A program made the translations under genes and the position numbers. The notes under the pieces are model-generated. The model was not told where the DNA came from. It did no database searches and saw only the letters and a list, made by a program, of their open reading frames with translations. From a virus, in the IMG/VR virus record IMGVR_UViG_3300009593_000015, positions 1 to 64,000 of that record: 64,000 nucleotides of DNA. One strand, written 5' to 3'. Shown piece after piece: positions 266 through 22,638 of this stretch (position 1 is its first letter; each line of letters opens with the position of its first letter).

Positions 266-303
266 TTATTATTATGAAGCATAAACTTATAATGGAAAAT
301 TGG
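164..303 (+). repeat. Diverged tandem copy of the iscA-to-leader cassette (partner 1605-1964)
   Basis: Bases 164-226 match 1605-1667 with about two mismatches, and bases 219-303 match 1880-1964 with a handful. The repeat begins at the iscA start codon, runs through its 3' end and the short spacer, and stops after the codons for the shared leader of the next gene (MKHKLIMENW). Beyond that the two downstream genes are unrelated. The repeat therefore joins the same carrier gene and leader to two different proteins. Confidence 0.85.
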
Positions 304-1563
304 CGACGGTTTTTGAAAGAAGCATCAGAAGCTGAAAATCAAGAAATATCACTTAAATTTTACAGAGATCCAACTGACAAAAGAGATTATGACAAGGAAC
401 CATTAACTGATCAAGAGATATCTTTACTTTCTAGTGATACTTTAAATGGCTTAATCGCCCGCAAAGCGTTGTTAATGCACATCTATGTTTACAGTGAGTT
501 GCCAGACATGTCTCCTGCTGTTAATAACATGGTTGTGGACACAGCAGAAGAATATGGAAAAGAAATATCAAAGAGAGCTGAAGAAGTGGATTGGAAACCA
601 GACTTTTCGGACAAAGAAAAAGAAGGCAAGCAAGAGACTCCTCCTCGTGCTGAGTATGTTCCATATCCTGACAATGAACATGGTCAAAATCCAGACTGCT
701 CCAGATTATCCGTCGATCCCTTGTCAGGCAACCCAAGAGACCCCAGTGTTGAATGGACATCTGAGGAATGTAGCGAAGAAGAAATGAGCAGAAATTGTTG
801 GGTCAATCTATTGACTTACAATATATTTCAAAGAAGGTCTGATCCGGTAGATATAGCTTTCACGTTCCTCAATATTAGCAATAGGTCTTACAAGGACGTG
901 TATTATGAAATATTAGACTCCTCAGGTTCTCCTGTTTCATATGAAGACCTATTTGAGCAGATGATGACGGAACAATTTGGAATAGATAAAGAATTTGATG
1001 GTGTTCCTGTCGGACTAATTCGTCACGAAGGCACTTTGGGCTTCCGACGAGTTTGGGAAACTGCGCGCTTCGATTCTCGCAGCGGAGAAAATTATCAGGG
1101 CGACCCCAATATTCATTATTCGTTTTGTCCAATTCCATCCCACTTGCATTCAAGTGAAACAAAACGAAAACTATCGACAGCACAAAAGGGCACAAAGCTA
1201 TTAATACCTTGGAAAGACCCATCTGGAGAGCCATATATGATCAGGTTCACACAAAAACCCAGTCACCCTTCTACTCCCGAACTTCCACCAGTACCAATAA
1301 ACGAATTGGGTAATCAAGGCATCGGTAGCAGAACGCTCGTAAGGGTTCCTACTGATTATTACGCTATAGACGCAGATCTTAGTGGTTTGTCAGATGACCA
1401 GTGGGATGAAATAGAATCATCACAAGAAAAATATATCCAAGCAAAAAAATCACCCTTCGTTGGCTTAAAGGTTGAAGATAGTCAAGTGATTGAGTATGAA
1501 GATTATAGTGAAGACGCTATAAAAGGATTTATGTGGAACTTCATGTTTACTATGCCTAGGTAA
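274..1563 (+). CDS. Unknown 429-residue protein with a capsid-targeting-like leader
   Basis: I do not recognise the body of this protein. It begins MKHKLIMENWRRFLKEA. From the second methionine (ATG 292) the first ten residues, MENWRRFLKE, have an aromatic at 4, Phe at 7, Leu at 8 and Glu at 10, like the T4 internal-protein leader MKTYQEFIAE. T4 leaders are cut by the prohead protease after (L/I)xE, here L-K-E. After an acidic linker to about residue 150 there is a mixed alpha/beta region with several Cys and Trp. There is no signal peptide or membrane segment. Both ATG 274 and ATG 292 are possible starts; no strong ribosome site decides. It follows the broken iscA copy by 8 bases. A role as virion-packaged cargo is inference. 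Confidence 0.6.
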   Translation: MKHKLIMENWRRFLKEASEAENQEISLKFYRDPTDKRDYDKEPLTDQEISLLSSDTLNGLIARKALLMHIYVYSELPDMSPAVNNMVVDTAEEYGKEISKRAEEVDWKPDFSDKEKEGKQETPPRAEYVPYPDNEHGQNPDCSRLSVDPLSGNPRDPSVEWTSEECSEEEMSRNCWVNLLTYNIFQRRSDPVDIAFTFLNISNRSYKDVYYEILDSSGSPVSYEDLFEQMMTEQFGIDKEFDGVPVGLIRHEGTLGFRRVWETARFDSRSGENYQGDPNIHYSFCPIPSHLHSSETKRKLSTAQKGTKLLIPWKDPSGEPYMIRFTQKPSHPSTPELPPVPINELGNQGIGSRTLVRVPTDYYAIDADLSGLSDDQWDEIESSQEKYIQAKKSPFVGLKVEDSQVIEYEDYSEDAIKGFMWNFMFTMPR

Positions 1564-1934: not shown

Positions 1935-2420
1935 GTGAAGCATAAACTTATAATGGAAAATTGGAAAACCTTTCTAGAAAAAGAAGAGAAGAAAACAAAT
2001 ATATATTTTTCTGGAAAATGTACTAGATGTGATCCTGATACAGTTAGGAGCGACTACGATTTTTCCACCTGGGAAGCGACGAATGGTGAACTTATAATAA
2101 AACCACACACAGATAATAAAAAATATGAAGAATATGAAGGAAAACTTAATAAGATAATTGGCTTTTCAGCAGGAGCTACAGCGGCGATAAGGCTAAAGAA
2201 ATTCCACCTAAATGCAACACTGGTCCTTATAGACCCCTGGCTTCCAAGGCTTCCAAGAGATTATATAATACCTCCAGATGTGGAATATTACGGCACTAGT
2301 TGTTTTATCGCCAGAACCCCAAATAAAGAAAGGCTACAGAGATCTAAAAAAGAGTGCAAGCCAAAAGAGACAAAATTCGATCATCATATGAAGTATTTTA
2401 AAGATTATTTTGGTTTATGA
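1935..2420 (+). CDS. Small alpha/beta-hydrolase-like protein with capsid-targeting-like leader
   Basis: The start is GTG at 1935, or ATG at 1953 giving MENWKTFLEKEE. The leader is shared with the protein at 274 at DNA level. The remaining part of this 161-residue protein resembles a short alpha/beta hydrolase: a strand, then G-F-S-A-G at about residues 77-81, fitting a GxSxG nucleophile elbow, then strand LVLIDPWLP with an acidic residue, and a C-terminal His pair (FDHH) that could complete a Ser-Asp-His triad. It is about half the usual length, so it may be a minimal esterase/lipase or a non-catalytic relative; the substrate is unknown. It lies 15 bases after iscA and is probably co-transcribed with it. 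Confidence 0.55.
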   Translation: MKHKLIMENWKTFLEKEEKKTNIYFSGKCTRCDPDTVRSDYDFSTWEATNGELIIKPHTDNKKYEEYEGKLNKIIGFSAGATAAIRLKKFHLNATLVLIDPWLPRLPRDYIIPPDVEYYGTSCFIARTPNKERLQRSKKECKPKETKFDHHMKYFKDYFGL

Positions 2421-2455: not shown

Positions 2456-3334
2456 ATGTTTCGACCTATTAGAAATCAGAGCCTTAAGCCGCTAATCGGA
2501 AACACGCCATTAATAAAAATCTCATCGCACATATACGCGAAACTAGAGACATACAATCCCGCAGGATCAGTAAAGGACAGGATGGTTTATTATGTAATTG
2601 AACGCGCCCGGATTTTTGGTAGAATAAACGAGAACAGTATTCTGTGTGAAGCAACGAGTGGAAATACTGGAATTTCGCTTTCGATGTTGGCGGCATCAAT
2701 GGGTCTGCAATGTGTTATATTTATGCCAAAAAACATGTCTCAAGAGAGGAAACAAATGATGAGTGTTTATGGTACTAAGATTATAGAAGCACCAGAGAAT
2801 GACTTTATTGGCGCAATTGCAATGAGAGATCAATATTTGTTAGCAAATGAAAATGCATGGTCACCGAAACAGTTCAGTAACCAACACAATATTTTGTGTC
2901 ATCAGACACAGACAGCACCAGAAATACACAAGCAGGCGATAGATACAAGACATAAATGGTCAGCGTTTGTCCACGGTTCCGGCACTGGTGGTACAATTGA
3001 GGGAGTAAGGAGATATATAATGAACAATAATTTAAAAACAAAAATTTGTTTAACGAGACCAGTAGAAGAAAATCATGGAATTCAGGGCATCTCAGACGGA
3101 AAGGATTTCTTATTCAACTCAGATACTGCTGACCGAATTATTGAGGTTTCAACAGAAGCATCGATTTCTCGGGCAAAAGATTTTATAAGAGAAACTGGAA
3201 TTTTGATAGGCATATCCTCAGGTGCAAATATTTTAGCATCCGAAAAATACGTAGAATCCATGAAGCCTGATGGTATAATAATAACAATGTTGTGTGATAG
3301 AGGGGAAAGATACATGTCAATTTACGACAAGTAA
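2456..3334 (+). CDS. cysK: Cysteine synthase (O-acetylserine sulfhydrylase, PLP-dependent)
   Basis: This 292-residue protein carries the diagnostic motifs of the CysK/CysM fold-II PLP family in order: GNTPL near residue 15, the PLP lysine in NPAGSVKDR (Lys40), TSGNTG (67-72) contacting substrate carboxylate, the phosphate-binding GSGTGGT (174-180), and GISSGAN (252-258). It should make L-cysteine from O-acetyl-L-serine and sulfide in the cytoplasm. It is slightly shorter than bacterial CysK (about 310-320). All catalytic motifs are intact, so activity is likely. CysK versus CysM (or a cystathionine beta-synthase-type enzyme) cannot be decided. It is an unusual gene for a phage and sits near an Fe-S carrier, where cysteine is the sulfur donor. 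Confidence 0.88.
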   Translation: MFRPIRNQSLKPLIGNTPLIKISSHIYAKLETYNPAGSVKDRMVYYVIERARIFGRINENSILCEATSGNTGISLSMLAASMGLQCVIFMPKNMSQERKQMMSVYGTKIIEAPENDFIGAIAMRDQYLLANENAWSPKQFSNQHNILCHQTQTAPEIHKQAIDTRHKWSAFVHGSGTGGTIEGVRRYIMNNNLKTKICLTRPVEENHGIQGISDGKDFLFNSDTADRIIEVSTEASISRAKDFIRETGILIGISSGANILASEKYVESMKPDGIIITMLCDRGERYMSIYDK

Positions 3335-3348
3335 AACTAATTAAAAGT

Positions 3349-5658
3349 ATGAAATATCTTAAAATTTTTAAAAAATTTCAAACATTCTTAAATGAACAGG
3401 AAAAAGAAAATTGTTCGGGAGTGGAAAACGTAGCTTGCCGCTGCGTTGACAACAGTCAAACTAATCTATCTATAGAACAGGTTCAGGAGTTTCTTAAAAA
3501 AATATATGGAACTGAAGAAGGTACAGGGTTGTCAATATCTTTTTCTGGAAAATTTGGCCACTCTGGCCCTGGAAACGCAGATGGGGTATGCGGCAAAGAG
3601 ACTAGAAATTTTATAATGAAATTTCAGACCGAAGCCGGCATTTGCGCTGACGCATGCGTCGGAACAGAAACAGAGGCTGCAATGAGAAAAAAAGATCCAA
3701 GTTTTTTTACTAGTCTGCCATCTGGCACTACATCATCCACCTCAACAGTGCCCCGAAGGCCGAGCACGAGCTTAAATTCAACTCAATCTACAAGTCAAGA
3801 CAATAGAAGAGATTCTGAAACCGGTGAAGGCCCCCTCTCAGCAACGCCCTCGATAATTGCTTCCTCTGGTGTCACAATATCCATCAAGGCCGCCAATCCA
3901 ACCCCTGGTGGTTATATTTCAGCAGGCCTTGGCAAAAATCACCATGGATATCAAGGAAAATTTGTAAAACCTAAGATATCAACAGACGACGCAGGTATGA
4001 TTAATGCCGTTAATTTTCAGGGCCCATTGAATTCTGCGAAGGGTATTACCGCTCAATCTCACAGAAAAAACACACAATGGGGAAACCCTGTTTTACTTTC
4101 TTTGCTTATAGCCGCATCTGCCCATGTTGTTAATTACGTAGTAAATAAGAAAGAGTCTTTCAAGACGTCGGATTCTATTGAACTTTGGAATGTTTCGAAA
4201 AAACACGGCGGGCCCCTATACAAGCACGCCGGTCACCAATCTGGGTTGGAGTGTGATATAGGCTTCTACAAAAAAAATGGAAGACCTGATATAGAAAGAA
4301 ATGCTGTTTTTTTAGAGTTCCTGTTAAGTCAAGAAGCTGTTGAATCTGTGCTACTCGACAAAACATCAGGTCCTGTTTCTGTTTCAAAGATGAGAGCATG
4401 GATTACGGCTAACAACTTGAAGGAAAAATTTCCAAAAGTCATGAATTCTAATAATAATTCCAAGCCACAATTAGCACCTGCTTCACCGGGTTCCCACGAC
4501 GATCATTATCACATAAGATGCCACTTTCCAGATGGTTCACCGTCAATGTCTGATTATACAAGAGATGAGAAGCTCGCGCAAAAATCAAATCAAATGCCCG
4601 GCGCACCAGTTTCTGCCAGAGGCGGCCCAAGAAAAGTTAAGATAAATGTCCAAAAGACCAAGAGGTACGGTTTCACAAAAAGATATCATTCCCTTCGGGA
4701 CAAAACAATAGACGAAATTATTAAACAATACGGACTCTCATTCTCTTTTACTTTCGGTGTGATAGACGGGGATAACGGCATGCCACAAATCTTAGAACAT
4801 CACAATCAAGAGTCTCCATTTACTGGGGCATCGATGCCTAAAACAATGGCAGCATTAGCACACTTGATAACATATAGTCCTAAGAATCCTGAAAATAAAA
4901 ATAATAAAAATTACAGCCCAGATAGTCAAATCAACGACTGTGAAGTAAAAGCTCTGTTAACTTATTGGAGTCGCGAAAGTGAAAAAAGAAATATCCCGCA
5001 AGGAGAAAAGTGTAAAAAATTTCATGATTCAAATTACACATTATCAGCCATCTCTGGTACTGACAGACGACGTAAAAAGCGCCGACGCAAATACGGATTC
5101 AGAAATAAACTTGGAGTGCTAAGTAAAAAGCAGATCAGAAAAGTTTCAGAAAAGTTTGGAATAACAAAAAAAAGTACTTTCACTTTCGGCGCAAATCACC
5201 AGACCAGCAAAGACATGTTTTTATTCTTCGCCGGTTTAGCCAGGATGGATCAAGAAAAACTATCAAAAATTGACCCTCTTTATACTCTTTACCATGGTGA
5301 TGCCTCAATCGGTGAACCCTCTTATAAAGAAGAGGTAAAGAGTTTAATAGCCATTCAAAAAATGAGAACATACTCAAGAAAAATGACATCCTCAGGTGCA
5401 ATGAGCATTAAGGGTTATAAGTCTTGGGGTAAAGGGGGATTAAGCAACGGGTCAGTCAATTTTGCATGGGTGGTAAGAGGTAGAGACGGCAGAACTTATG
5501 TGCTGTCGGTTTATTCTCTCTTAAAGTGGGAATACCCACTTCCGAAATCAGCATCTCAACAGGAGAAAGCAGATAGAGCAGCAAGGATATATAAAAATAA
5601 TTCTCATGGCTACGATCTAGTAAATGCAGTTTTATATAAATTAATGGAGAAAACATAA
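3349..5658 (+). CDS. Three-part murein enzyme: PG-binding domain, MepA-type endopeptidase, SxxK serine-hydrolase domain
   Basis: The protein has 769 residues. The N-terminus MKYLKIFKKFQTFLNEQE has a leader-like aromatic-x-x-FLxE and no signal peptide. Residues 40-117 fit a peptidoglycan-binding repeat (helix, DGVCGKETRNFIMKFQ, VGTETEAAM). A Ser/Thr/Pro linker follows (120-170). Residues 180-400 match penicillin-insensitive murein endopeptidase (M74, MepA): HAGHQSGLECD gives His296 and Asp303 in the MepA spacing, and HDDHYH gives His383, His386 and His388, the zinc and catalytic set. From about 440 to the end the chain has SMPK (Ser495-Lys498), a possible SxN-like site near 560, and KGG (695-697), the order of motifs in beta-lactamase/DD-carboxypeptidase folds. 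It should cut peptide cross-links in murein; the serine domain could trim D-Ala or be binding only. Its stop overlaps the next start (TAATG). Confidence 0.8.
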   Translation: MKYLKIFKKFQTFLNEQEKENCSGVENVACRCVDNSQTNLSIEQVQEFLKKIYGTEEGTGLSISFSGKFGHSGPGNADGVCGKETRNFIMKFQTEAGICADACVGTETEAAMRKKDPSFFTSLPSGTTSSTSTVPRRPSTSLNSTQSTSQDNRRDSETGEGPLSATPSIIASSGVTISIKAANPTPGGYISAGLGKNHHGYQGKFVKPKISTDDAGMINAVNFQGPLNSAKGITAQSHRKNTQWGNPVLLSLLIAASAHVVNYVVNKKESFKTSDSIELWNVSKKHGGPLYKHAGHQSGLECDIGFYKKNGRPDIERNAVFLEFLLSQEAVESVLLDKTSGPVSVSKMRAWITANNLKEKFPKVMNSNNNSKPQLAPASPGSHDDHYHIRCHFPDGSPSMSDYTRDEKLAQKSNQMPGAPVSARGGPRKVKINVQKTKRYGFTKRYHSLRDKTIDEIIKQYGLSFSFTFGVIDGDNGMPQILEHHNQESPFTGASMPKTMAALAHLITYSPKNPENKNNKNYSPDSQINDCEVKALLTYWSRESEKRNIPQGEKCKKFHDSNYTLSAISGTDRRRKKRRRKYGFRNKLGVLSKKQIRKVSEKFGITKKSTFTFGANHQTSKDMFLFFAGLARMDQEKLSKIDPLYTLYHGDASIGEPSYKEEVKSLIAIQKMRTYSRKMTSSGAMSIKGYKSWGKGGLSNGSVNFAWVVRGRDGRTYVLSVYSLLKWEYPLPKSASQQEKADRAARIYKNNSHGYDLVNAVLYKLMEKT

Positions 5659-6155
5659 TGAAGAAAGTTAGAATAAAAATAGTCGAATCAAATACATGCG
5701 ACCCATGTTCCGCCTCTGGAAAGTACCCAGCAGAAAACCCAGCATCTCCGGATTCTACAATGGACAAACACATGCACACTAGTGATTGTGAAAAGCCCCC
5801 TGTTGATTATAAAAATGCTACAAATGGCCAAGAGTCCAGAATGCACAGAACCACATTGGCTCATCTTGTGGCAGACGTAAAAGTATTGCTCGACCTAGTA
5901 AAAGACGAAGATGATCTTCCGGAGTGGCTTGAAACTAAAATAACGAAAGCGGGAGATTATATGTCTAGTGCTGCAAGATATGTAGCGGGGAATATTGCAA
6001 GAGATCAAGGACAGCTCGAAGAACAAGCTATCAAAATAACAGCCGACGTTGTAAAAGGTTTGATCGACAATTTGGAAGTATCGGCTTTAAACCAAGAAGC
6101 GCTTTCTAGTTTGTACGCTGCTTTAAGTGGATTATCTAGTACACAAACTTCTTGA
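5658..6155 (+). CDS. Small phage protein with a helical motif common in marine phages
   Basis: This 165-residue protein starts inside the stop of the murein enzyme (TAATG), so the two are translationally coupled. The N-terminus MKKVRIKIVES ends in I-V-E, a possible prohead-protease site. A Cys-rich stretch (CDPCSASG) follows. At about residues 79-110 is the acidic-then-amphipathic segment DDLPEWLETKITKAGDYMSS, a motif that recurs in small proteins of marine T4-like phages; its function is not established. The C-terminal half is predicted helical and could form a coiled coil. There is no signal peptide or membrane span. It might be another packaged protein or a partner of the murein enzyme; both are guesses. 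Confidence 0.6.
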   Translation: MKKVRIKIVESNTCDPCSASGKYPAENPASPDSTMDKHMHTSDCEKPPVDYKNATNGQESRMHRTTLAHLVADVKVLLDLVKDEDDLPEWLETKITKAGDYMSSAARYVAGNIARDQGQLEEQAIKITADVVKGLIDNLEVSALNQEALSSLYAALSGLSSTQTS

Positions 6156-6182
6156 CATTTTGTTAATCTTGTGATATAAATA
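6152..6182 (+). promoter_or_regulatory. Sigma70-type promoter for tilS, also a TATAAATA late-type box
   Basis: TTGACA (6152-6157) overlaps the TGA stop of the preceding gene. After 17 bases follows TATAAA (6175-6180), extending to TATAAATA, the T4 late-promoter consensus read with gp55-type sigma. The tilS ATG at 6190 lies only about 10 bases beyond the -10 box, so the transcript would have almost no leader. It could work early with host sigma70 and again late with the phage sigma encoded at 23819. Confidence 0.65.
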
Positions 6183-6189
6183 AAATATC

Positions 6190-6792
6190 ATGATTAGAAT
6201 TATTGGAAAAATACCCCCGAATGTTGTTATAGCCTGTTCGGGTGGAGTTGACAGCATGGTAGTGACACACTTTCTCCTACAGGGAAGGAGAAATGTTAAG
6301 TTAGCCTTCTTTAATCACGACACTCTACACAGTAAGCATGCCCAAAGATTCGTTGAAGAATTTGCGCAAGAAAAAAAACTTGATTTGTTTATTGGGGGCA
6401 TAAAAGGGGTGAAAGGTAAAAGGTCAATAGAAGAGTTTTGGAGAGACGAGCGATACAATTTTTTTAATAGGATATCTGCGGATTTTTTAATTACATGTCA
6501 TCATCTTGATGATGGAGTAGAAACGTGGATAATGTCGGCAATGCACGGCCGCTGTAAACTTATACCATACCAAAGAGGTAAAAATATATTTCGGCCCTTT
6601 TTGATGACTTCAAAGAAGACAATTAAGCAATACGCCGAAAATAAAAAATTAGATTGGGTAGAGGACCCGACAAATGCAAGGACAGAATATATTAGAAACC
6701 ACATTAGGCATACTATGATGCCAAACGTACTAAAGGTAAACCCAGGTATAAGAACTATGATAAGGAAAAAATTAATTGAAAGTTATTTATAA
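6190..6792 (+). CDS. tilS: tRNA(Ile)-lysidine synthase, minimal N-terminal form
   Basis: This 200-residue N-type ATP pyrophosphatase has the PP-loop SGGVDS (residues 17-22), the TilS signature HHLDDGVET (near 104-112), and the family-specific DPTNARTEYIRNHIRH followed by a VNPG segment. TilS converts C34 of tRNA-Ile2 (anticodon CAU) to lysidine so that it reads AUA and is charged with Ile. The protein consists of the catalytic domain alone; bacterial TilS proteins are commonly 300-450 residues with C-terminal domains that help bind tRNA. A matching CAU tRNA gene lies 634 bases downstream. Ten of the 19 Ile codons in tilS itself are ATA and none is ATC, in line with a need for AUA decoding. 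It is driven by the promoter at 6152. Confidence 0.9.
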   Translation: MIRIIGKIPPNVVIACSGGVDSMVVTHFLLQGRRNVKLAFFNHDTLHSKHAQRFVEEFAQEKKLDLFIGGIKGVKGKRSIEEFWRDERYNFFNRISADFLITCHHLDDGVETWIMSAMHGRCKLIPYQRGKNIFRPFLMTSKKTIKQYAENKKLDWVEDPTNARTEYIRNHIRHTMMPNVLKVNPGIRTMIRKKLIESYL

Positions 6793-8661: not shown

Positions 8662-9402
8662 CTATATTTCTTTTATTTTTTTCTTGGTTTGCTTTATAAA
8701 CAATTTAAAAGATTTATAGTTTGTAATAAGGGTTAAATGTGGAAATTTTGGTGTAGAAGCAAATAAGACACCAACAATCTCATTTTTAGAATTCAACACC
8801 GCAGACCCTGAAGCTCCACCAGTGGCTGGAAAAGTCACTAAAGCAGACGACGCGTCAATATTGCCGCTAAAAATTCCTTCAAATATTGCAACACTTGGAA
8901 AGTGATATACGCCAAGGGGGGCGCCCATATATCTTAATCTCTCTCCTATGTCCGGTTTTTTAATGGAAATCTTTACTTTTTTTACTTCTAAGGTTGGAAC
9001 CCACAATACACAGTGATCACCACTTCCAGCGAAATCAACAAAACTTTTATTCAAAACCCAAGCTTGATGAGTATTACCTCTATAGTCTAATACTTTTATC
9101 GTTTGTAGATATTTATCTATTAAAGCTTTAGGTTGTGAATCACAAACGTGCCCGGCAGTAATTACCGTCATTAACTTCCTGTCTAAGTCAATCGCCATCC
9201 CACTTCCAGAATTGTAATATTGTCCTATTGGACAATTTTTATCTTTTTTGTCTTTGCAAGAGATTATTTTTATAGTATGTAGGATTTTTACAAAACTTTT
9301 GGACGGTGGAGTAATCGTTTTACTATTTACCCGAGAAACTGTGCAACAGTTGAGAAATAAAAAACAAAAAGTTAAAAATATTACTTGTTTTAATCTGTTC
9401 AT
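8662..9402 (-). CDS. Secreted trypsin-like serine protease, probable lipoprotein
   Basis: This is the only minus-strand gene in the window. The 246-residue protein starts with a signal peptide (MNRLK, then a hydrophobic core) ending in LNCC, compatible with lipid attachment at Cys19 or Cys20 although not a textbook lipobox. The chymotrypsin-fold triad is readable: His85 in ITAGHVC, Asp129 in GSGDHCVL, Ser198 in GGASGSAV. Two strands after the serine (EIVGVLFAS) fit the family. It would act in the periplasm or on the outer membrane. Its own orientation, export signal and position between operons fit a moron-type gene acting on the host envelope or on competing phage or bacterial proteins. The substrate is unknown. 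Confidence 0.85.
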   Translation of the reverse strand: MNRLKQVIFLTFCFLFLNCCTVSRVNSKTITPPSKSFVKILHTIKIISCKDKKDKNCPIGQYYNSGSGMAIDLDRKLMTVITAGHVCDSQPKALIDKYLQTIKVLDYRGNTHQAWVLNKSFVDFAGSGDHCVLWVPTLEVKKVKISIKKPDIGERLRYMGAPLGVYHFPSVAIFEGIFSGNIDASSALVTFPATGGASGSAVLNSKNEIVGVLFASTPKFPHLTLITNYKSFKLFIKQTKKKIKEI

Positions 9403-12248: not shown

Positions 12249-13002
12249 CTTCTCTGAGTTCAAGAACTGGCGAGAGTGTCCGTATAGACATAAACTAATC
12301 CATATAGACAAGGTTCCATATTTTGAAAGCAATGAATTTACTGCTTTCGGAATCGCAATGCACGAGGCTTGCGAGAAAACCTTTCCAAAAAATAGAAAAA
12401 ATCTATACCAGGTTTTTCAGAAAAGCTTTGATTTAGAGTTAAAAAAAATAAAAAACAAATCTCTGAACCAAGACCTTGTGAGTGACATGTACATGCAGGC
12501 AAAAACAGTTTGCAAACAAATTGTTCCAAAAATAGACGAATATTTCGAAGAATATGAGGTCTTTTCTGTCGAAGAAGCTCTCTTTGAAAAAATAGATGAG
12601 TTTGATTCACACGGCCGTAGCTTTAAGGGGTTTGTAGATATGATATTGAAAACCCCGGATGGCAAATTTCACATCATAGATTGGAAAACTTGTTCCTGGG
12701 GATGGAACAGTAATAAGAAGAGTGACCCTATTACTAACTACCAGTTGACATATTATAAAAATTACTTCTCAAAGAAATACAATATAGAAGCAAAAAATAT
12801 CGATACATATTTTGTCCTTCTTAAAAGGACCGCGAAGAGGGAAAATGTAGAAGTGGTGAAGACAACTTCAGGGCTCAAAAAAACTGAAAACTCTTTAAAA
12901 CTTTTAGAAAATGCTGTTATAAATATAGAAAATAAAGTTTTTATTAAAAATAGACTTAATTGTAAATATTGCAAATTTTACAGGACAGAGCATTGTAGAT
13001 GA
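12187..13002 (+). CDS. PD-(D/E)XK nuclease of the RecB/Cas4 type with probable Fe-S cluster
   Basis: The 271-residue protein has the RecB-family nuclease layout: SFSEFKNWRECPYRHKL at the N-terminus, a helix with a His (AMHEAC), the metal-binding GFVDMIL then IIDWKT (Asp and Glu/Asp-x-Lys core), and motif QLTYYK. One cysteine in WRECPYR and three in the C-terminal CKYCKFYRTEHC match the four-cysteine iron-sulfur pattern of Cas4, AddB and related nucleases. It is probably a 5'-3' or structure-specific DNA exonuclease acting in replication or recombination. No CRISPR genes are near, so a phage recombination role is more likely than spacer capture. The ATG at 12187 overlaps the preceding gene; no closer start codon is obvious. 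Confidence 0.8.
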   Translation: MKQQKNQQEEKDLLNEQKRISFSEFKNWRECPYRHKLIHIDKVPYFESNEFTAFGIAMHEACEKTFPKNRKNLYQVFQKSFDLELKKIKNKSLNQDLVSDMYMQAKTVCKQIVPKIDEYFEEYEVFSVEEALFEKIDEFDSHGRSFKGFVDMILKTPDGKFHIIDWKTCSWGWNSNKKSDPITNYQLTYYKNYFSKKYNIEAKNIDTYFVLLKRTAKRENVEVVKTTSGLKKTENSLKLLENAVINIENKVFIKNRLNCKYCKFYRTEHCR

Positions 13003-14258
13003 CAAAAAGAAAAATATTAGTAATTGCAGATTCCCCGTTGGTGCCTTCCGGAGTAGGCACTCAGACAAAATATATGATAGACTCCTTGCTGAAAACCGGA
13101 GAGTACAAATTTTTATGTCTAGCCGGCGCCATTAAGCATAGAGATTATAGGACAATAAAAACAGAAGAGTGGGGTGATGATTGGTTAATCAAGCCAGTAG
13201 ATGGATACGGAAACCCTGAAATATTGAGAGCAGTAATAAGAGATTTCAAGCCAGATGTTTTATGGTTTATGACTGATCCTCGTTTTTACGTATGGTTATG
13301 GAAAATGGAAAATGAAATCCGGCCTTACGTACCAATGGTCTATTACCATGTATGGGACAATTATCCATATCCGATGTTTAATAAAAAATTCTACGATTCA
13401 AACGACATGGTTTGTACCATAAGTAAAGTAACAGACGATATAGTGAAGACAGTGTCCCCAGATATTATATCGAGAAGGGTTCCTCACACTGTTGATACAA
13501 ATATATTCAAGAAAACAGAGAACAAAAAAGAAGTTCAAAAATTTAGAAATTTTATTTGTAAAGGAAAAGAAAAAATGATTTTCTTTTGGAATAATAGGAA
13601 TGCAAGGAGAAAACAGCCCGGATCTTTAATTTATTGGTTTAAAGAATTCTTAGATATTGTAGGTCATGAAAACGCCTGCCTCCTGATGCACACAGAACCA
13701 AGAGATCCTCACGGGCAAGATTTGCAAGAAATTATTAATAATTTAAAACTCAACAAACACAATCAAGTCCTTCTTTCAACGGAAAAATTGCAACCTGATA
13801 AGTTAGCAAATCTATATTCCTCGGCAGATTGCACAATTAATATTTCAGATGCCGAAGGGTTTGGTTTAGCCACGCTAGAATCACTATCTTGTGAAACACC
13901 AATTATTGTGAATATGACAGGCGGTCTACAAGAGCAGGTAACAGACGGCACCTCTTGGTTTGGTATTGAGATTTACCCCTCCTCTAAGTCTGTCATAGGT
14001 TCGCAGGATGTCCCATATATATATGAAGATAGGATCAATGGAGAAGAGTTTGTTGGCAAATTAGTTGAATTTTATAACTTACCTAAAATAGAACGAGAAG
14101 AAATGGGAAAAAAAGGCAGAGATCACGTATTGAATAATTTTGGCATAGAACAGTATTGCGAAAACTGGAAAAAAGTTATGAATGACGTCATCGATCGATG
14201 CGGTTCTTGGGACACTAGAAAAGATTATAAAAGCTGGTACTTTGGAGAAATAAAATGA
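12999..14258 (+). CDS. GT-B glycosyltransferase (GT4-like), first of the glycan operon
   Basis: The 419-residue protein fits a two-domain GT-B enzyme. The N-terminal domain starts with strand ILVIADSP and a glycine loop (PSGVGTQTKYM); the C-terminal donor domain ends with DAEGFGLATLESLSCETPIIV followed by GG (about residues 283-310), the E-x7-E type nucleotide-sugar site of GT4. It should transfer a sugar from an NDP-sugar to a growing glycan in the cytoplasm. Donor and acceptor cannot be read. It overlaps the nuclease stop and the next gene by ATGA, indicating coupled translation. Confidence 0.85.
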   Translation: MTKRKILVIADSPLVPSGVGTQTKYMIDSLLKTGEYKFLCLAGAIKHRDYRTIKTEEWGDDWLIKPVDGYGNPEILRAVIRDFKPDVLWFMTDPRFYVWLWKMENEIRPYVPMVYYHVWDNYPYPMFNKKFYDSNDMVCTISKVTDDIVKTVSPDIISRRVPHTVDTNIFKKTENKKEVQKFRNFICKGKEKMIFFWNNRNARRKQPGSLIYWFKEFLDIVGHENACLLMHTEPRDPHGQDLQEIINNLKLNKHNQVLLSTEKLQPDKLANLYSSADCTINISDAEGFGLATLESLSCETPIIVNMTGGLQEQVTDGTSWFGIEIYPSSKSVIGSQDVPYIYEDRINGEEFVGKLVEFYNLPKIEREEMGKKGRDHVLNNFGIEQYCENWKKVMNDVIDRCGSWDTRKDYKSWYFGEIK

Positions 14259-15556
14259 AGATTTTACTAGAAGGACCAATTCTCACACAGTCCGGATACG
14301 GCGAACATACACGTTTAGTCTATAAATCTCTTAAACTAAATGATAAAAATAAAGTATATGTAAACCCTCTTCGATGGGGTAATACTACTTGGAGTTTGGA
14401 AGAAAATCCTGTAAATAAAAATATAGAAAAAGACATAAGAGCTTTGGGAGACATTTCCCTGAAAGCTCAAAAGGAAAATAGTGATACAAAATTTGATTTA
14501 CATGTGCATGTAGGAATTATAAATGAATTCGTTCCAAAAGCACTAAAAAGTATTTGCATAACTGCAGGTATAGAGACAGATAGGGTATCTGACGACTGGC
14601 TTTTGCGAACATACCAAAACCAGCCGTCAAAAATAATAGTCCCATCATCACACGCAGCAAACGGATTCTTAAATAGTCGACATGCCGTCTTAGAACCGAA
14701 AACTAACACCCAGCATGAAATTGGATATAACATGGATTGCCCAATGGAAATTATACCTTATCCTGTGAAAAAAGTCTCACCTGAAGATATAGATATTGAC
14801 TTAGAAACTGACTTCAATTTTCTTTCAATAGCTCTATCAGGCCCCAGAAAAAACTTAGAAGATTTGGTTCGTTGCTTTTTGGAAGAATTCAAAGATGAAT
14901 CCGTCGGCCTAGTACTCAAGACGGCAGGAGCAAATGGTTCGATTATTGACAGACACTTTACAATTGAAAGACTCGAAAAGCTGATCAGAAAAGACAAAAA
15001 TAGAAAATGTAAGATATATTTATTACACGGAGATTTATCCGAGAGTCAAATTCATTCCCTTTATCAAAGAGATGATATACATGCCTACGTTACTGCCACT
15101 CGCGGAGAGGGATATGGACTTCCAATATTTGAAGCAGCATATAGCGGAATGCCAGTTGTAGCAACAGACTGGTCAGGGCATTTAGATTTTCTTCAGGCTC
15201 CCTTTAAAGAGGGAGGAAAAGTAAAAATAAAAAAACTCTTCGCAAAAGTAAACTATAAATTAGAAAAAATACACCCATCAGCCGTGTGGGATAAAGTTCT
15301 CATAGCAGATTCAAAATGGGCCCAAATCGATGAATCTTCCCTTAAAAGACAAATGAGAAATGTACTAAAATCGCACGGAAGATATAAGAAGTGGGCAAAG
15401 GCACTACAAGAGTATATACTAGAAAACTACGAAGAAAAGAAAATTTTGAGAAAATTAGAAGAATCTTTGACAGGTAAATCGATGTTTTCTACAGAAATGC
15501 ATTATAAAAAATTAAACAAGAGAAAGCAAAGTTTAGAAATTTCAGGAACACTTTAA
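14255..15556 (+). CDS. Second GT-B glycosyltransferase (GT4-like)
   Basis: The 433-residue protein starts MKILLEGPILTQSGYGEHTR, the first strand and glycine loop of the GT4 fold, and has the donor-site segment TRGEGYGLPIFEAAYSGMPVVATDWSG split around residues 281-308. A short insertion (residues 145-155, PKTNTQHE) precedes the linker. It is a paralogue in fold of the preceding gene but clearly distinct, so the two probably add different sugars. It overlaps the first GT gene by four bases (ATGA) and is followed by 16 bases before the next gene. Confidence 0.85.
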   Translation: MKILLEGPILTQSGYGEHTRLVYKSLKLNDKNKVYVNPLRWGNTTWSLEENPVNKNIEKDIRALGDISLKAQKENSDTKFDLHVHVGIINEFVPKALKSICITAGIETDRVSDDWLLRTYQNQPSKIIVPSSHAANGFLNSRHAVLEPKTNTQHEIGYNMDCPMEIIPYPVKKVSPEDIDIDLETDFNFLSIALSGPRKNLEDLVRCFLEEFKDESVGLVLKTAGANGSIIDRHFTIERLEKLIRKDKNRKCKIYLLHGDLSESQIHSLYQRDDIHAYVTATRGEGYGLPIFEAAYSGMPVVATDWSGHLDFLQAPFKEGGKVKIKKLFAKVNYKLEKIHPSAVWDKVLIADSKWAQIDESSLKRQMRNVLKSHGRYKKWAKALQEYILENYEEKKILRKLEESLTGKSMFSTEMHYKKLNKRKQSLEISGTL

Positions 15557-15572
15557 ATTTTAGGAATAAATT

Positions 15573-16271
15573 ATGGAAGAAAATATAAAAAAAGAAAAAG
15601 ATATACCATTCAGTTTTTGCATCATAACAGATAATTCAGATGAAGCCATTCCAAGAATAGAGGAGACAATTGATTCAATCCGACTATTAAGGATACCAGA
15701 ATTTGAAATCTTAATAATAGGAGGCACCGGAAATAAAATCACCAGATCTGGCAGTAACATAAAAAAGATAGATTTTAATGAGTCTACAAAATCTGCTTGG
15801 CTAACTAAGAAGAAGAATACAATCGCAAAGCATTGCAAATATGAAAACATAGTCATGTTTCATGATTATTTCATTTTTCACTTTAGTTGGTACTTTTATT
15901 ACAAACAATTTTTTAACAAATATGAATATGATATATGTTGTAACCCTATTCTAATGATGGACGGAAGAAGAGATTACACTGACTGGCTTACTTGGGACCA
16001 CCCAACAATTGGCCAACAAATCAGCTTACCATATAGTGACTGGAAATATACTAAAAACCAATATGTTAGTGGTGGTTATTTTTTAGTTAAAAAACAGTTT
16101 TTGATTGATAACCCCTTCGATGAAAGCCTTGCCGCCGGCGACCCTGAAGATGTTGAGTGGAGCCTCCGAGTTAGAGATAAAGCAAAAATAATTTGTAACC
16201 CTTATTCTTACTGTAAGCAAACAAAGGAACATAGAAATCTAAGAGTAGATTTATGGAATAGATTATTATGA
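15573..16271 (+). CDS. GT-A glycosyltransferase (GT2-like)
   Basis: The 232-residue protein has the Rossmann start FSFCIITDNSDEAIPRIEETIDSI of family-2 transferases, a hydrophobic strand followed by FHDY where GT2 enzymes carry the metal-binding DxD, a glycine/acceptor region VSGGYFLVKKQ, and GDPEDVEWSLR, matching the conserved ED catalytic-base motif. A small, single-domain cytoplasmic enzyme without membrane spans. The DxD is reduced to H-D, so metal use may differ. ATGA overlap with the phosphatase gene downstream supports joint expression. Confidence 0.75.
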   Translation: MEENIKKEKDIPFSFCIITDNSDEAIPRIEETIDSIRLLRIPEFEILIIGGTGNKITRSGSNIKKIDFNESTKSAWLTKKKNTIAKHCKYENIVMFHDYFIFHFSWYFYYKQFFNKYEYDICCNPILMMDGRRDYTDWLTWDHPTIGQQISLPYSDWKYTKNQYVSGGYFLVKKQFLIDNPFDESLAAGDPEDVEWSLRVRDKAKIICNPYSYCKQTKEHRNLRVDLWNRLL

Positions 16272-16792
16272 TTAAATTAGTTATTTTAGATATTGATGGC
16301 GTCTTAACCGACGGCCGTAAATACTACAACGAATCCGGCATGCCTTTCGCAAAGACTTACTGTGATAAGGATTTTACTGCCATCAAGCGCCTTCGAGGCG
16401 CCGGAATCGATGTGTGTTTTCTATCGGGGGACGACTTTGTAAACAAGGCCATGGCCAAGAATAGAAATATTGATTTTTATTCAGCAAGAGGAAAAGACAA
16501 GGCAGACTTCATCCCAGAATTTGAGAGTAAGTATTCGACCCACAGGGCTCATATGGTATATATTGGTGATGACTTGTTTGATGCTAGTATGCTAAAAAAT
16601 GTGGGACACCCTTTTTGCCCAGCCGACGCGTGCTTGGATGTTAAGGAAATTTGCGGCGCGCGAAATATTTTGCAATCCCCCGGCGGTCACAACGTGATAA
16701 TGGAACTTACAAGGGTCCTTCTTGATCGAAAATGGGTTCCTGACGCCAGTATGAAACAAATCGAGAACCTGGATAAGGAAGAGAAGTTTTAA
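16268..16792 (+). CDS. HAD phosphatase of the KdsC type
   Basis: The 174-residue protein begins with the HAD nucleophile motif DIDGVLTDG (Asp8, Asp10), then FLSGDD (motif II), a Lys in KAMAK/GKDKADF (motif III), and VYIGDDLFDASML (motif IV). It has no cap insertion and its length is that of KDO-8-phosphate phosphatase KdsC (C0-type HAD). It should release phosphate from a sugar phosphate. In LPS pathways KdsC makes KDO; related enzymes serve NeuA-type sialic acid pathways. Here the neighbours suggest a sugar-phosphate step of the same operon, but the substrate is not readable. Confidence 0.8.
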   Translation: MIKLVILDIDGVLTDGRKYYNESGMPFAKTYCDKDFTAIKRLRGAGIDVCFLSGDDFVNKAMAKNRNIDFYSARGKDKADFIPEFESKYSTHRAHMVYIGDDLFDASMLKNVGHPFCPADACLDVKEICGARNILQSPGGHNVIMELTRVLLDRKWVPDASMKQIENLDKEEKF

Positions 16793-17499
16793 TGACCCCA
16801 CGGCCCCATCAAACCGGCCTGCTTTTAACTCACCTATTCGTCCGCCCGGGCCAAGAATACAAATTCCAAATGTTAAAATATGTAATAGATTTCTATAAAA
16901 ATATAGACAATAATTTTTTTATAGTCATTTCAGGCCACGGCCAGGTGCCACCAGAAGATATACAATCCCAGGTAGATGGGGTATACTGGGAACAACAGAT
17001 AGATGAACGCCAAATAGGCCGCGGCCACGCAAAGCTCTGCATAGAGGGGTTTAAGATATTAAAAAACAACAAAATAGACAATTGCATAAAGGCTAGATAT
17101 TGTGATGTTGTTCAAAATGTAAGTTTAATCACTAAAGCAATATCTCAAAATAAACTAATGTTTACTGAGCAAACGTGTTTAGCTGATAGGATGTTGGGTG
17201 ATCTACTAATGTCTGGCAATACAGAAGCTCTGTATGATCTATGGTCTATGTGTGATTGGGACTATTCTAAAAGTGGATTATATAATCTTTATGATAATTT
17301 AGAATCTTATGCAAGAAAGATAAATTTATCACCAAAGAAATACTTAGAGTGTAATTGTGTTTTTCACAAGCCAGAAGATCTATTGTGGTTTACGATTGAA
17401 CACAATTGGTCTCAGCACGAATCCACCCTTGTAGAGCCTTTGTGTGATAAGCATTTATGGGGAAGGAAATTAAATTATGAATACTATGGAGGTTTTTAA
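16792..17499 (+). CDS. Putative glycosyltransferase, WavE-like
   Basis: The 235-residue protein starts in the preceding stop (TAATG). It has a Rossmann-like N-terminal half, then CIKARYCDVV and TEQTCLADRMLGDLLMSG, which resemble the KxRxD and (S/A)D-x-hydrophobic-G segments of the WavE family of LPS-synthesis proteins. A similar protein with clearer motifs is at 21886. WavE is needed for LPS core synthesis in Vibrio and is thought to be a transferase. Call is tentative because similarity is read by eye. Confidence 0.5.
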   Translation: MTPRPHQTGLLLTHLFVRPGQEYKFQMLKYVIDFYKNIDNNFFIVISGHGQVPPEDIQSQVDGVYWEQQIDERQIGRGHAKLCIEGFKILKNNKIDNCIKARYCDVVQNVSLITKAISQNKLMFTEQTCLADRMLGDLLMSGNTEALYDLWSMCDWDYSKSGLYNLYDNLESYARKINLSPKKYLECNCVFHKPEDLLWFTIEHNWSQHESTLVEPLCDKHLWGRKLNYEYYGGF

Positions 17500-17509
17500 A
17501 TAAAAAATT

Positions 17510-18139
17510 ATGCCATTTATAAATCATACTCATAAGTTTGTATTTCTCGGCAATGCTCGATGTGCTAGTACAAGCATGTATCAAGAGATAGCAAAGAACT
17601 CGAAAGAAGATTCTACATCCTGGCCAGGAGGAATAGCTGCAAAACCTAATTCTTATCATATGGGTGTAAAAGAATTACTAAGAAAACACCCCTATACCGA
17701 GACATACTATAAATTTTGTTTTGTGAGGAACCCTTGGGATCGCTTTCTTTCATCATATAGAGAATTTAAAATGGATCGTCACTCCGAATGGAACTCTGAA
17801 ATAAAAACATTTAAAAGTTTTGAAGAGTTTTGTATTGGTTTTAGAGACACGTCTTTAGTTTCTGATATACATTTTGTGCCACTATATGATCAAATTTGTA
17901 GTTTTGAAAGCACAATGGCAATTGATTACGTCGCCAGATTTGAAAATTTAACAGAAGATTACGCAAATATAATGAAAGTACTCAACAAGCCACAGGAATT
18001 AAGCTTTCACTCTAGGCACCAGAAAGAAGAAAAGCACTATACAGAGAATTACACATCCAAAACTAGAGATATAATAGGCAAAATTTATAGCAAAGATATC
18101 GACGCTTTTAATTATTTTTTCCAAAAGGCAGATAGTTGA
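17510..18139 (+). CDS. Sulfotransferase, family 2-like
   Basis: The 209-residue protein has the PAPS 5'-phosphosulfate loop as FLGNARCASTSMY (about 12-24), the 3'-phosphate-binding strand-helix FVRNPWDRFLSSY (71-83), ARFENLTEDY, and the C-terminal HYTENYTSKTRDIIGKIYSKDIDAFNY typical of carbohydrate sulfotransferases. It should move sulfate from PAPS to a sugar hydroxyl. No PAPS synthesis genes are in the window, so PAPS would come from the host. No signal peptide, so it acts in the cytoplasm, on precursors of the glycan built by neighbouring genes or on a virion glycan. Confidence 0.85.
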   Translation: MPFINHTHKFVFLGNARCASTSMYQEIAKNSKEDSTSWPGGIAAKPNSYHMGVKELLRKHPYTETYYKFCFVRNPWDRFLSSYREFKMDRHSEWNSEIKTFKSFEEFCIGFRDTSLVSDIHFVPLYDQICSFESTMAIDYVARFENLTEDYANIMKVLNKPQELSFHSRHQKEEKHYTENYTSKTRDIIGKIYSKDIDAFNYFFQKADS

Positions 18140-18141
18140 CA

Positions 18142-18846
18142 ATGAGAGTCGCCCTGCTAGGAAAAAAATATAAAGACAAAATATATCACATAAAAAATTT
18201 AAGAAAAGGAGAGACCAACGTTTCTGATTTTTATAATGAGAGGTTAGGAGGAGCGCATAATTTCTTAAACAAAGAATCAGAAAACAATAATTTACTATTT
18301 GAACCTTTTTTAAGGGGCGAAAAAATAGCAACAATTATTAATGACAAAGAAGAGAGTACTAGAACCTCTTTCACCTATGAAGTGGAAGAGTCAAACATTA
18401 CAGGTGATGATATAGATAAGATTAACTCTGACTATGATTGGCTGCATGTGTGCTATATTGATGACATTGGCCCTTTACAATCGCTACAAAAAGTAAAAAT
18501 ACCTATCAGTTTGGACTTTTGCACTTTAACTCCTCGTTCTCGATATATGAATATTATAATGAGGTCTGAATTTGTATTTGATTCTAGGGAAAGGCTTAAC
18601 CTATATGACACATTAAAGTTTAAAAATCCTTTAATTTTGCATGACCCTTGCGGGGTAGATGTTAGAATATTGGGCGAAATAAAGCACTCGGCTAAAATGG
18701 TCCCAGTCCAGGGACTTTCAGTAAACGGCGCCGGCGACATGTTTGCTAAAAATTTTATTAAAAATTTTACAAAACATGGTATACTTAAATCATCAACAAT
18801 GGCCATGACGGAGACGACTAGCCAATTACTGAGGAGAAAACATTGA
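18142..18846 (+). CDS. PfkB-like sugar kinase (shortened)
   Basis: I take ATG 18142 (MRVALLGKKY), three bases after the previous stop; a TTG two codons earlier is less likely. The 234-residue protein has the PfkB/ribokinase signature SVNGAGDMFAKNFI near residue 195, holding the anion hole and catalytic Asp. The N-terminal part is shorter than in typical 300-residue PfkB kinases and the first signature is not clear, so this is a divergent or trimmed member. It would phosphorylate a sugar or sugar phosphate with ATP. Followed by a nucleotidyltransferase, the pair recalls the kinase plus nucleotidyltransferase logic of ADP-heptose synthesis, though the actual sugar is unknown. Confidence 0.68.
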   Translation: MRVALLGKKYKDKIYHIKNLRKGETNVSDFYNERLGGAHNFLNKESENNNLLFEPFLRGEKIATIINDKEESTRTSFTYEVEESNITGDDIDKINSDYDWLHVCYIDDIGPLQSLQKVKIPISLDFCTLTPRSRYMNIIMRSEFVFDSRERLNLYDTLKFKNPLILHDPCGVDVRILGEIKHSAKMVPVQGLSVNGAGDMFAKNFIKNFTKHGILKSSTMAMTETTSQLLRRKH

Positions 18847-20006
18847 AAAAACGATTTAATTTACTTTTACCCATTGCTGGAGCCGCAAAAAGGTTTTCAG
18901 ACGTGGGGTACACGATGCCAAAGCCACTTATTATGGCGAACAACAAACACATTATTGATTGGTCAATGGAATCAATGAAGCTTGACGAGTGTAACATTAC
19001 ATTTGTTGTGAGGGCAGAACATGTTTATAACTTTTCTATTGATGAAATTTTAAGACAAAAATTTGGAAAAGATGTAAATATAGTTGTTTTAGACAGGATG
19101 ACTAGAGGATCCGTCGAGACTTGTCTCAAGGCTAAGGAGTTTATTGACAATGATATGCCCCTAATTATTTACACACCTGACGTCTACTTTGAGAACCAAC
19201 TAGACCCTGCTTCTATAGATCCGGATTTAGATGGGTTTGTTCTAACATTTAAAGCTAACTCTCCAGCCCATAGCTATGTGAAGATGGGTGAAGATGGGTT
19301 CGCAACTAAGACAGCCGAAAAGGAAGTTATTTCACAAGATGCTGCGGTAGGGGTCTATCACTATAAAACAGGAAAAATGTTTATTAAATATGCAGAAGAA
19401 CTTATAGACGAAAACATAACCGTAAAGAATGAATTTTATTTGTGCCCTATGTACAACTTAATGATCAAAGACGGATTAAAAATAAAGACCAGATCTGCCG
19501 AAAAGATGCATGTACTGGGGACCCCTGCAGAATTAGAATTTTTTACTAATTATGTTGTTCAGCGCTTTGGCGAAAAGCCAGTTGCGTTATGTTGTGACCA
19601 TTCAGGTTATGAATTGAAGGAGGCTTCAAAAAAGCTTTTAGAGGATAATGGGGTTCCGTTTATTGATTTTGGAACCCTTATGAATAAAGATTGTGACTAT
19701 AACGATTATGTATCGCAGGCTATGATGGCCATAGAAACAAAGGTGTGTGATTTTGCAATGGGCTTCTGCCGCACCGGCCAGGGTGTAAATATGTTAGCAA
19801 ACACTTCGAAGCATATTCGAGGAGCTCTTGTTTTCGATGAGTATACGGCTGAACACTCAGTTAGGCATAACTGTGCAAACTTTTTCACAATACCAGAGAA
19901 GTACGTCTCAGAAGAAGAGTTAAACAATATGATCAAAGTATGGAAAGTGACCACGTTCGACGGCGGCCGCCACATGACAAGAATGAAGAAGACTATAGAG
20001 AATTAA
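18843..20006 (+). CDS. Fusion of a sugar nucleotidyltransferase and an RpiB/LacAB-type isomerase
   Basis: This gene starts with TTG 18843 overlapping the previous stop. Residues 1-240 form a hexose-1-phosphate nucleotidyltransferase: IAGAAKRFSDVGYTMPKPLI (a variant of the GxGxR...PKP loop) and YTPDVYFE with metal-binding Asp. From about 242 on it is an RpiB/LacAB isomerase: CCDHSGYELKEASKKLL, DYNDYV, GFCRTGQGVNMLAN (Cys near 309, the base position of RpiB) and TAEHSVRHNCANFF (His near 341). RpiB interconverts ribose/ribulose 5-phosphates; LacAB and allose relatives act on hexose phosphates. Both active sites look intact. I know of no standard enzyme with this order. It suggests one protein isomerising and activating a sugar. 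Confidence 0.85.
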   Translation: MKKRFNLLLPIAGAAKRFSDVGYTMPKPLIMANNKHIIDWSMESMKLDECNITFVVRAEHVYNFSIDEILRQKFGKDVNIVVLDRMTRGSVETCLKAKEFIDNDMPLIIYTPDVYFENQLDPASIDPDLDGFVLTFKANSPAHSYVKMGEDGFATKTAEKEVISQDAAVGVYHYKTGKMFIKYAEELIDENITVKNEFYLCPMYNLMIKDGLKIKTRSAEKMHVLGTPAELEFFTNYVVQRFGEKPVALCCDHSGYELKEASKKLLEDNGVPFIDFGTLMNKDCDYNDYVSQAMMAIETKVCDFAMGFCRTGQGVNMLANTSKHIRGALVFDEYTAEHSVRHNCANFFTIPEKYVSEEELNNMIKVWKVTTFDGGRHMTRMKKTIEN

Positions 20007-20017
20007 TATGAGAGATA
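20000..20017 (+). repeat. 18-base direct repeat, left copy (right copy 20758-20775)
   Basis: The bases from the end of the preceding gene through the ATG and third codon of the sulfotransferase gene are identical over 18 positions to 20758-20775, which span the start of the transketolase gene. The two copies flank the sulfotransferase gene exactly from start codon to start codon. Recombination between them would remove that gene cleanly. Confidence 0.75.
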
Positions 20018-20745
20018 GATTTGACGTCGAGAATGGTGATATAAAACAATTAGAAGCAAACCTGTTTAGAGAATATAACTTATTTTATATACATATTCCA
20101 AAAACAGGGGGAAACACAGTTTTAAGGACTCTTCGAAAAGAAGTGGGAGAAGACATTTCTGAAGATATCGATAACGAAAATCTTATTAGACGCTTCGGCG
20201 CCGAAAACAAAAGAGCGCATACAACAACCGATGAGCTGTTCACTAGTCATCTTAAGATGACAAAGGGATTTAAAAATACTTTAGACGACAATATTATGGT
20301 GTTTTCAACAGTTAGAAACCCATTCGACCGCGCCTATTCGCTTTATATGTGGTCAAAATATGGTATTGATAAAAATATTTTTAAAACCAGTGAATATAAT
20401 AAATTTTTCATGCGCATAAGCACTTTTGAACAATTTCTTGAAGATTCTCAAAAAGTTAATTATCCTTTATTTGAAATGTGTAAGCCCCAGAGCGACTGGT
20501 TATATGACAGTACCGGTCAAAAACTGTTCGATATAGCTTGTAAACTAGAAAACTTAAGAGAAGATATGAGCACTGTCTGCCAGCATGCTGGCATAAAAAT
20601 CAGATCTAATATGTTTAAGTATAAAATTAATATGAACCCCTTGAGAGGAAACCTGCATTATCATGATGCATATAATATGACAACTAAAAATATGGTCCAA
20701 GAAATTTACAAAAAAGACCTAGAGAATTTTAATTATGATTTTTAA
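20008..20745 (+). CDS. Second sulfotransferase
   Basis: The 245-residue protein carries the PAPS-binding IHIPKTGGNTV (27-39; PKTGG is the 5'-phosphosulfate loop) and STVRNPFDRAYSLY (100-113; 3'-phosphate motif), then a Lys/Glu region FDIACKLENLRED and the C-terminal HYHDAYNMTTKNMVQEIYKKDLENFNYDF family ending, split here for reference only. It is only distantly similar to the sulfotransferase at 17510 (the first loop differs, PKTGG against ARCAS), so the two probably sulfate different positions. The gene is bounded by an 18-base direct repeat and looks like an inserted cassette in the operon. Confidence 0.85.
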   Translation: MRDRFDVENGDIKQLEANLFREYNLFYIHIPKTGGNTVLRTLRKEVGEDISEDIDNENLIRRFGAENKRAHTTTDELFTSHLKMTKGFKNTLDDNIMVFSTVRNPFDRAYSLYMWSKYGIDKNIFKTSEYNKFFMRISTFEQFLEDSQKVNYPLFEMCKPQSDWLYDSTGQKLFDIACKLENLREDMSTVCQHAGIKIRSNMFKYKINMNPLRGNLHYHDAYNMTTKNMVQEIYKKDLENFNYDF

Positions 20746-20757
20746 AACAACGAGAAA

Positions 20758-20775
20758 GAATTAATATGAGAGATA
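20758..20775 (+). repeat. 18-base direct repeat, right copy (left copy 20000-20017)
   Basis: Identical to 20000-20017. It covers the end of the spacer and the first codons (MRD...) of the transketolase N-subunit gene. Both genes therefore begin with Met-Arg-Asp from the same DNA, although the proteins are unrelated. Confidence 0.75.
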
Positions 20776-21882: not shown

Positions 21883-21885
21883 AAA

Positions 21886-22635: not shown

Positions 22636-22638
22636 AAA

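Follow-up and report, generated by a model that had tools for sequence, protein, structure and literature searches.

A gene at positions 3349–5658 of the stretch of viral DNA analysed here (the window, 64,000 nucleotides) encodes a 769-aa protein that joins a capsid-targeting-like leader, a peptidoglycan-binding domain, a MepA-type metallopeptidase and an SxxK serine-enzyme domain. The protein is probably a murein hydrolase that is packaged in the virion head, processed by a protease and equipped with two wall-cutting chemistries. The window is part of G000, a virus record of 78,250 bases; the virus is marine, infects bacteria and belongs to a T4-like lineage. An earlier reading, made from the letters of the DNA alone, had described the open reading frame and its murein-active domains. 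Strand, ATG start and length were as claimed, and every residue that it quoted was found at its claimed position when the sequence was read out (HQSGLECD, aa 296–303; HDDHYH, aa 383–388; FTGASMPK, aa 491–498; KGG, aa 695–697). Its view of two enzymes in one chain is also supported, for the M74 (MepA-type) domain by family score and active-site residues and for the serine domain by the fold of a homologue, and the chemistry of the murein domains is plausible as judged from sequence. What that reading overlooked is the leader at the N-terminus, which moves the likely place of action from that of an endolysin to that of virion cargo. The features of the gene are as follows:

3349..5658, + strand: 769-aa protein (leader, PG-binding domain, M74 peptidase, class-A-fold SxxK domain); open reading frame with ATG start
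3349..3396, + strand: N-terminal leader MKYLKIFKKFQTFLNE, aa 1–16, capsid-targeting-like; spacing of the T4 IPII/IPIII leader, and the leader of the M74 protein of record G009
3550..3684, + strand: PG_binding_1, aa 68–112; Pfam E 1.7e-4
3709..3918, + strand: Ser/Thr/Pro-rich linker, aa 121–190, 50% S+T+P; by composition
4060..4545, + strand: Peptidase_M74 / MepA-like metallopeptidase, aa 238–399; Pfam E 1.9e-5, NCBIfam MepA E 1.4e-5
4234..4257, + strand: HxxxxxxD motif, H296–D303; invariant relative to E. coli MepA and phage homologues L006 and L012
4495..4512, + strand: HxxHxH motif, H383/H386/H388; invariant relative to the same three proteins
4666..5655, + strand: SxxK serine-enzyme domain, aa 440–769; leave-one-out HMM, homologue modelled with a class A beta-lactamase fold
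4831..4842, + strand: S495-x-x-K498, predicted nucleophile and base; GASMxK invariant in 6/6 family members
4963..4965, + strand: Y539, candidate motif-2 residue in place of Ser130/Tyr150; invariant in 6/6, role inferred
5431..5439, + strand: K695-G-G, beta-3 motif equivalent to KTG/KSG; GKGG invariant in 6/6

The leader of the window protein (aa 1–16) has the form F10-QT-F13-L14-N-E16, i.e., aromatic-xx-F-L-x-E, with Phe where the usual leader of the lineage has Trp. It aligns with the leader of the M74 protein of G009, MKIKELTKKWDKFLSE, which is followed by QEEE; in the window protein, cleavage is predicted by analogy after LNE16, with QEKE next. The T4 internal proteins IPII and IPIII start with MKTYQEFIAE followed by A, as read from the T4 record, and share with the window leader the aromatic-xx-aromatic-[LI]-x-E spacing. 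In the T4 leader, residues 4 and 7 serve targeting, residues 8 and 10 serve processing by gp21, and gp21 cuts after [LI]xE (PMC9026906). The window leader resembles the T4 capsid-targeting sequence in a short motif, and both this brevity and the Phe for Trp weaken the case for packaging. Two further genes upstream of the window gene carry such leaders:

274..1563, + strand: leader-tagged protein (MKHKLIMENWRRFLKE), 429 aa; by its leader
1935..2420, + strand: leader-tagged protein (MKHKLIMENWKTFLEKE), alpha/beta-hydrolase-like with GFSAGA; by motif only

The hydrolase-like protein had no Pfam match, and its counterpart in G009 lies directly upstream of the M74 gene. IscA/HesB-like (1605–1919) and cysteine-synthase-like (2456–3334) genes of the window both adjoin these cargo genes, and NifU/IscU-like ORFs are present in relatives L003, L015, L017 and L042, making up a sulfur/iron-sulfur set.

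The same type of leader recurs throughout the lineage. The pattern W..[FY][LIV].E was seen 28 times in N-terminal zones of PhoH loci against 0.86 expected from its rate in protein interiors, a 33-fold enrichment; as these genes are related across the loci, its nominal p-value makes the case look stronger than it is. The reversed pattern gave 0 matches and the shifted one a two-fold excess; a looser leader expression was likewise enriched two-fold only. A cluster of 20 apparent leader hits (L028 type) proved to be a false match and was dropped, and a weak Pfam match to Pertus-S4-tox (E 0.13) was judged to be noise. Scanning viral contigs with the pattern retrieved 164 different ORFs with the tag, which blastp grouped into 101 clusters, and the alignment of the 101 representatives is conserved in MKLIMENWRxFLxE only. 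This portable leader is thus carried by approximately 100 unrelated protein families on marine T4-like viral contigs (loci L003–L234). Domains recognised in the tagged proteins include Nudix, zeta toxin-type kinase, protein kinase, LysM, GIY-YIG, HNH, LigT, GNAT and nucleotidyltransferase, and ART-like proteins are also among the tagged families; Nudix, kinase, GNAT and LysM domains are of the kind expected of cargo. At the nucleotide level, 106 of 130 viral matches to the leader pattern were true gene starts, as were 0 of 31 matches in bacterial and archaeal genomes totalling 257 Gb. Since the viral loci had been selected by the leader pattern, the fair figure here is this count of contexts and not abundance. 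Flavobacterium phage immuto, the closest cultured relative by terminase (45%), had no W-type leader genes within the 150 kb read, and no report of the leader sequence was found in the open-access literature.

A protease that may process such leaders is encoded by the same virus. G000 carries a gp21-type S77 prohead protease (PF03420, E 2e-31, G000:73751-74173), and an S77 protease was found in only 17 of the 30 leader-bearing records tested (G000 included, many of them fragments), though in 10 of 12 when records above 150 kb are counted. The major capsid protein of G000 contains LLRE59-A, a matching LxE site, which by analogy appears to stand where the propeptide of gp23 ends. Another N-terminus, MKKSELxxIIKE, marks a gene flanked by those of the prohead protease and the scaffold as well as cargo-region genes of relatives, and may be another targeting leader. 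Genes with this recurrent N-terminus are located as follows:

62713–63156 of the window: MKKSELxxIIKE gene
12260–12661 of L002 (G000 74260–74661): MKKSELxxIIKE gene

We infer packaging, leader cleavage, DD-peptidase activity and timing from these data and propose the following course of events. The 16-residue leader would target the window protein to the scaffolding core of the prohead, where the gp21-type protease would cut it off after L-N-E16, and the mature protein would be delivered together with DNA. It would then bind peptidoglycan via PG_binding_1 and cut the cross-link peptides with its MepA-type zinc endopeptidase. The second cutter would be an acyl-serine DD-peptidase of class A fold with S495 as the nucleophile, K498 as the base, K695-GG, and Y539 as a probable proton shuttle. 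The wall would be attacked either upon entry or in the early phase of host take-over. T4 internal proteins end up in the cytoplasm, a compartment free of murein; delivery of that kind would bring the enzyme to no substrate, and periplasmic release, or action at a later stage or at lysis, would be needed. On a wider scale, we see about an even chance that the approximately 100 families form one cargo system of uncultured marine T4-like phages. Proteins sharing a capsid-targeting tag would then be loaded into the head, processed there and injected, and the triple-domain murein hydrolase of the window would be one of them.

Alternatively, the protein could be a conventional lysis endolysin that acts late and from inside, its leader being incidental. 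A PG-binding part combined with a catalytic domain is the classic endolysin make-up, the PG-binding part matches endolysin PHROGs, and the G000 record is fragmentary. However, relatives hold a leaderless endolysin beside the leader-tagged M74 protein: in L006, the two adjoin, and the leaderless GH25+PG_binding protein, by its sequence a plausible lysis enzyme, points to a lysis pool separate from the tagged one. In addition, the window leader aligns with the tag of some 100 unrelated families, and neither a signal peptide nor a holin neighbour was recognised. An endolysin with an incidental leader is therefore a possible but unlikely reading. At the position of the window gene, the close relative L003 has a PG_binding + GDSL-like protein (4487–6238).

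It is distinctly improbable that the protein is a lysin of the tail or baseplate, digesting the wall from the tail tip in the manner of T4 gp5. Virion-associated lysins are common and the record holds many tail-type structural ORFs, but the gene lies in a variable cargo region near PhoH, outside the baseplate cluster, its product has no tail-related domain that we could find, and its leader is of the type borne by T4 head proteins.

The N-terminal domain scores count somewhat against the head-packaged hydrolase that we favour. Taken alone, the Pfam scores of PG_binding_1 (22.2 bits, just below the curated cut-off of 23) and Peptidase_M74 (24.9 bits, just below the cut-off of 25) are marginal. 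The PG-binding part is also matched by phrog_2649 (endolysin) over aa 70–116 with E 4.8e-6. At the active site, the M74 assignment is well supported because the residues are invariant: H293, H296, Q297, G299, D303, H383, H386, H388 and R390 are identical in the window protein, MepA of E. coli MG1655 and two phage homologues. This series includes all five residues earlier quoted as the MepA set (H296, D303, H383, H386 and H388), so that the window domain and E. coli MepA have their five H/D metal-site positions in common. The rest of the sequence is very divergent from MepA (BLASTP aligned a stretch of only 12 residues), and the window domain, with its marginal Pfam score, is part of a phage fusion.

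The serine domain (aa 440–769) had no usable match in Pfam, PHROGs, NCBIfam or PDB sequences, whether searched alone or as three- and six-sequence profiles, and Pfam Beta-lactamase2 gave no match to the record at E<=10. Homologues were sought starting from 80 loci of the same lineage, taken by their PhoH gene. The first was found by a whole-record search in G009 (27% identity, E 7.9e-7), and L089/L094, L232/L234, L236 and L235/L237 followed from DNA patterns of the motifs and a three-sequence profile, giving five homologues in marine viral contigs and, with the window protein, a family of six. A scan with a WGKGG pattern added no members, a conserved-motif pattern found no bacterial relative in genome contigs, and no relative was found in cultured phages. 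In leave-one-out HMM searches, all six members scored well clear of the decoys, and even the weakest, the window protein, reached E 3.2e-16; identities to one member of the family range from 23 to 60%. The family boundary agrees with the domain start at residue 440 implied by the sequence-only reading.

Residues invariant in all six members are, in window numbering, G470, G493-A-S495-M-x-K498, A502, E532, Y539, G614, N616, Q618, F626, E662, G694-K-G-G697, S720 and Y722. The SxxK and KGG motifs singled out earlier are thus not due to chance; the possible SxN-like site suggested along with them finds no support as a conserved element, as no SxN is common to the six members. One option offered earlier for the C-terminal domain was a degenerate binding module, which would here have the PBP/beta-lactamase fold, and the missing SxN motif and Glu166 would agree with it. 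The invariance of Ser, Lys and KGG makes such a module very improbable, and Tyr539, N616/Q618 and S720/Y722 are likewise retained down to 23% identity.

The fold was assessed by structure prediction. AlphaFold modelling of the window domain itself from two sequences reached a pLDDT of 39; class A beta-lactamases topped its Foldseek list without significance, and this result was discarded as proof. The L236 domain, modelled from six sequences, reached a pLDDT of 84.6 and a pTM of 0.88. Foldseek comparison of this model with the PDB gave 294 matches at E<=0.001, the best being class A beta-lactamases (BEL-1, E 1.5e-7), and VIA-align superimposed 204 residues on a TEM-type chain with Z 20.4, an rmsd of 2.7 A and 12% identity, SHV and TEM enzymes being listed throughout. 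SxxK (S29–K32) stands at the start of the equivalent of the second helix (31–44), and KGG lies within strand 207–214 (beta-3). The expectation that residues 440–769 adopt this fold is hence borne out by a homologue (class A, Z 20), while the model of the window domain itself was of too low a quality to speak to it. Since the window domain belongs to the same family (E 3.2e-16), the fold is carried over to it by homology, and the modelling supports a PBP/beta-lactamase (class A) fold of the window domain.

The motif-2 position is occupied by Ser130 in class A and by Tyr150 in class C enzymes. As placed by the model, Tyr539 would lie at the end of helix alpha-4, near this position. The omega-loop Glu166 (ExxLN) is missing in 6/6 members, and class A Ser130 has no conserved equivalent in the family. 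Together with the invariance of Tyr539, this speaks against a beta-lactamase and in favour of an acyl-serine DD-peptidase or an esterase: judging by its conserved residues, the domain is probably a DD-peptidase-like acyl-serine enzyme (or an esterase). With TEM, SHV and BEL-1 it has in common the fold (Z 20), SxxK and K[T/S/G]G, but identity is 12–17% and Tyr539 occurs without a conserved equivalent of Ser130 or Glu166. The same phage SxxK DD-peptidase-type fold is seen in BFVD entry A0A6J7WTF8, an S11-like protein of an uncultured Caudovirales virus (Foldseek E 4.7e-5), which is shorter (236 aa) and annotated as S11. A phage-borne beta-lactamase shielding infected cells from beta-lactams can practically be dismissed: the fold is that of class A, but ExxLN is present in 0/6 members, Ser130 is not conserved, and the domain is fused to or adjoins murein peptidases.

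Among the loci found, only the window gene fuses an M74 and a serine domain, a pairing that was met nowhere else in this analysis and for which no report was found in the open-access literature. In G009, the two parts are separate genes of one cassette (serine domain, L086 5908-6954; M74 protein, L086 from 11677), which additionally encodes LysM and M15_3 proteins. The serine gene of L089 shares four bases with an ORF whose HKAGNAFD...HID signature looks M15-like, a reading from the motif only, as the ORF had no Pfam match. An alpha/beta-hydrolase-like part with HSAGG, again a motif reading only, follows the serine domain in L232/L234. The leader stands directly before the catalytic domain in the serine homologues L236 (MKLLLENWEEFLNE) and L083 (MKLIMENWRQFIIE). 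The serine domain also occurs inside a protein of >1100 aa (L235 1-3336, L237 3-2078), which is possibly a polyvalent protein.

T4 IPI-III and Alt likewise combine a short aromatic-xx-F-[IL]-x-E leader with a gp21-type protease, and their tag, too, sits on unrelated, variable cargo genes (PMC9026906). The window lineage differs from T4 in that its leader is mostly of the W-type (MKLIMENWRxFLxE) and spread over ~100 families, packaging being deduced here from genes. Polyvalent proteins, which are virion-packaged and, like the window protein, multidomain with a predicted role in breaching peptidoglycan, have DD-peptidase or lysozyme domains proposed to help DNA across the wall; in the accessible parts of that work, DD-peptidase domains are confined to a small subset, and neither the pairing of M74 with a class A fold nor a leader like the capsid-targeting sequence is named (PMC5512222). 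The murein hydrolase motif of the TM4 tape measure is that of a virion enzyme aiding entry, as proposed here, but belongs to a tail protein and to other folds (PMC1796659).

The analysis thus adds an SxxK serine-enzyme family missed by standard profiles. We know of no T4 internal-protein cargo that is murein-active; if our reading is true, the T4-type head can act as a carrier of murein hydrolases. The tag system reaches further as a lead than the window protein itself: the leader provides a sequence rule for listing proteins possibly injected by marine phages of a large uncultured group, whose injected proteome would, if the rule is true, be predictable from sequence.

Several other genes of the window were noted. 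The protein encoded at 5658–6155 overlaps the stop of the lysin gene, belongs to a family (MHRTTLAHLVAD) kept at this place in most relatives and has a third type of N-terminus, MKKVRIKIVES. A trypsin-like secreted protease or lipoprotein is encoded on the minus strand at 8662–9402, with a homologue in L011 (8992–9756, minus strand). Glycosyltransferase, sulfotransferase-like, nucleotidyltransferase/isomerase, HAD and split transketolase-like ORFs form a long run at 12999–23103, as if serving surface sugars or glycosylation. Very long structural-type ORFs stand amid baseplate-like genes at 26660–36622 (3320 aa) and 42810–50123 (2437 aa).
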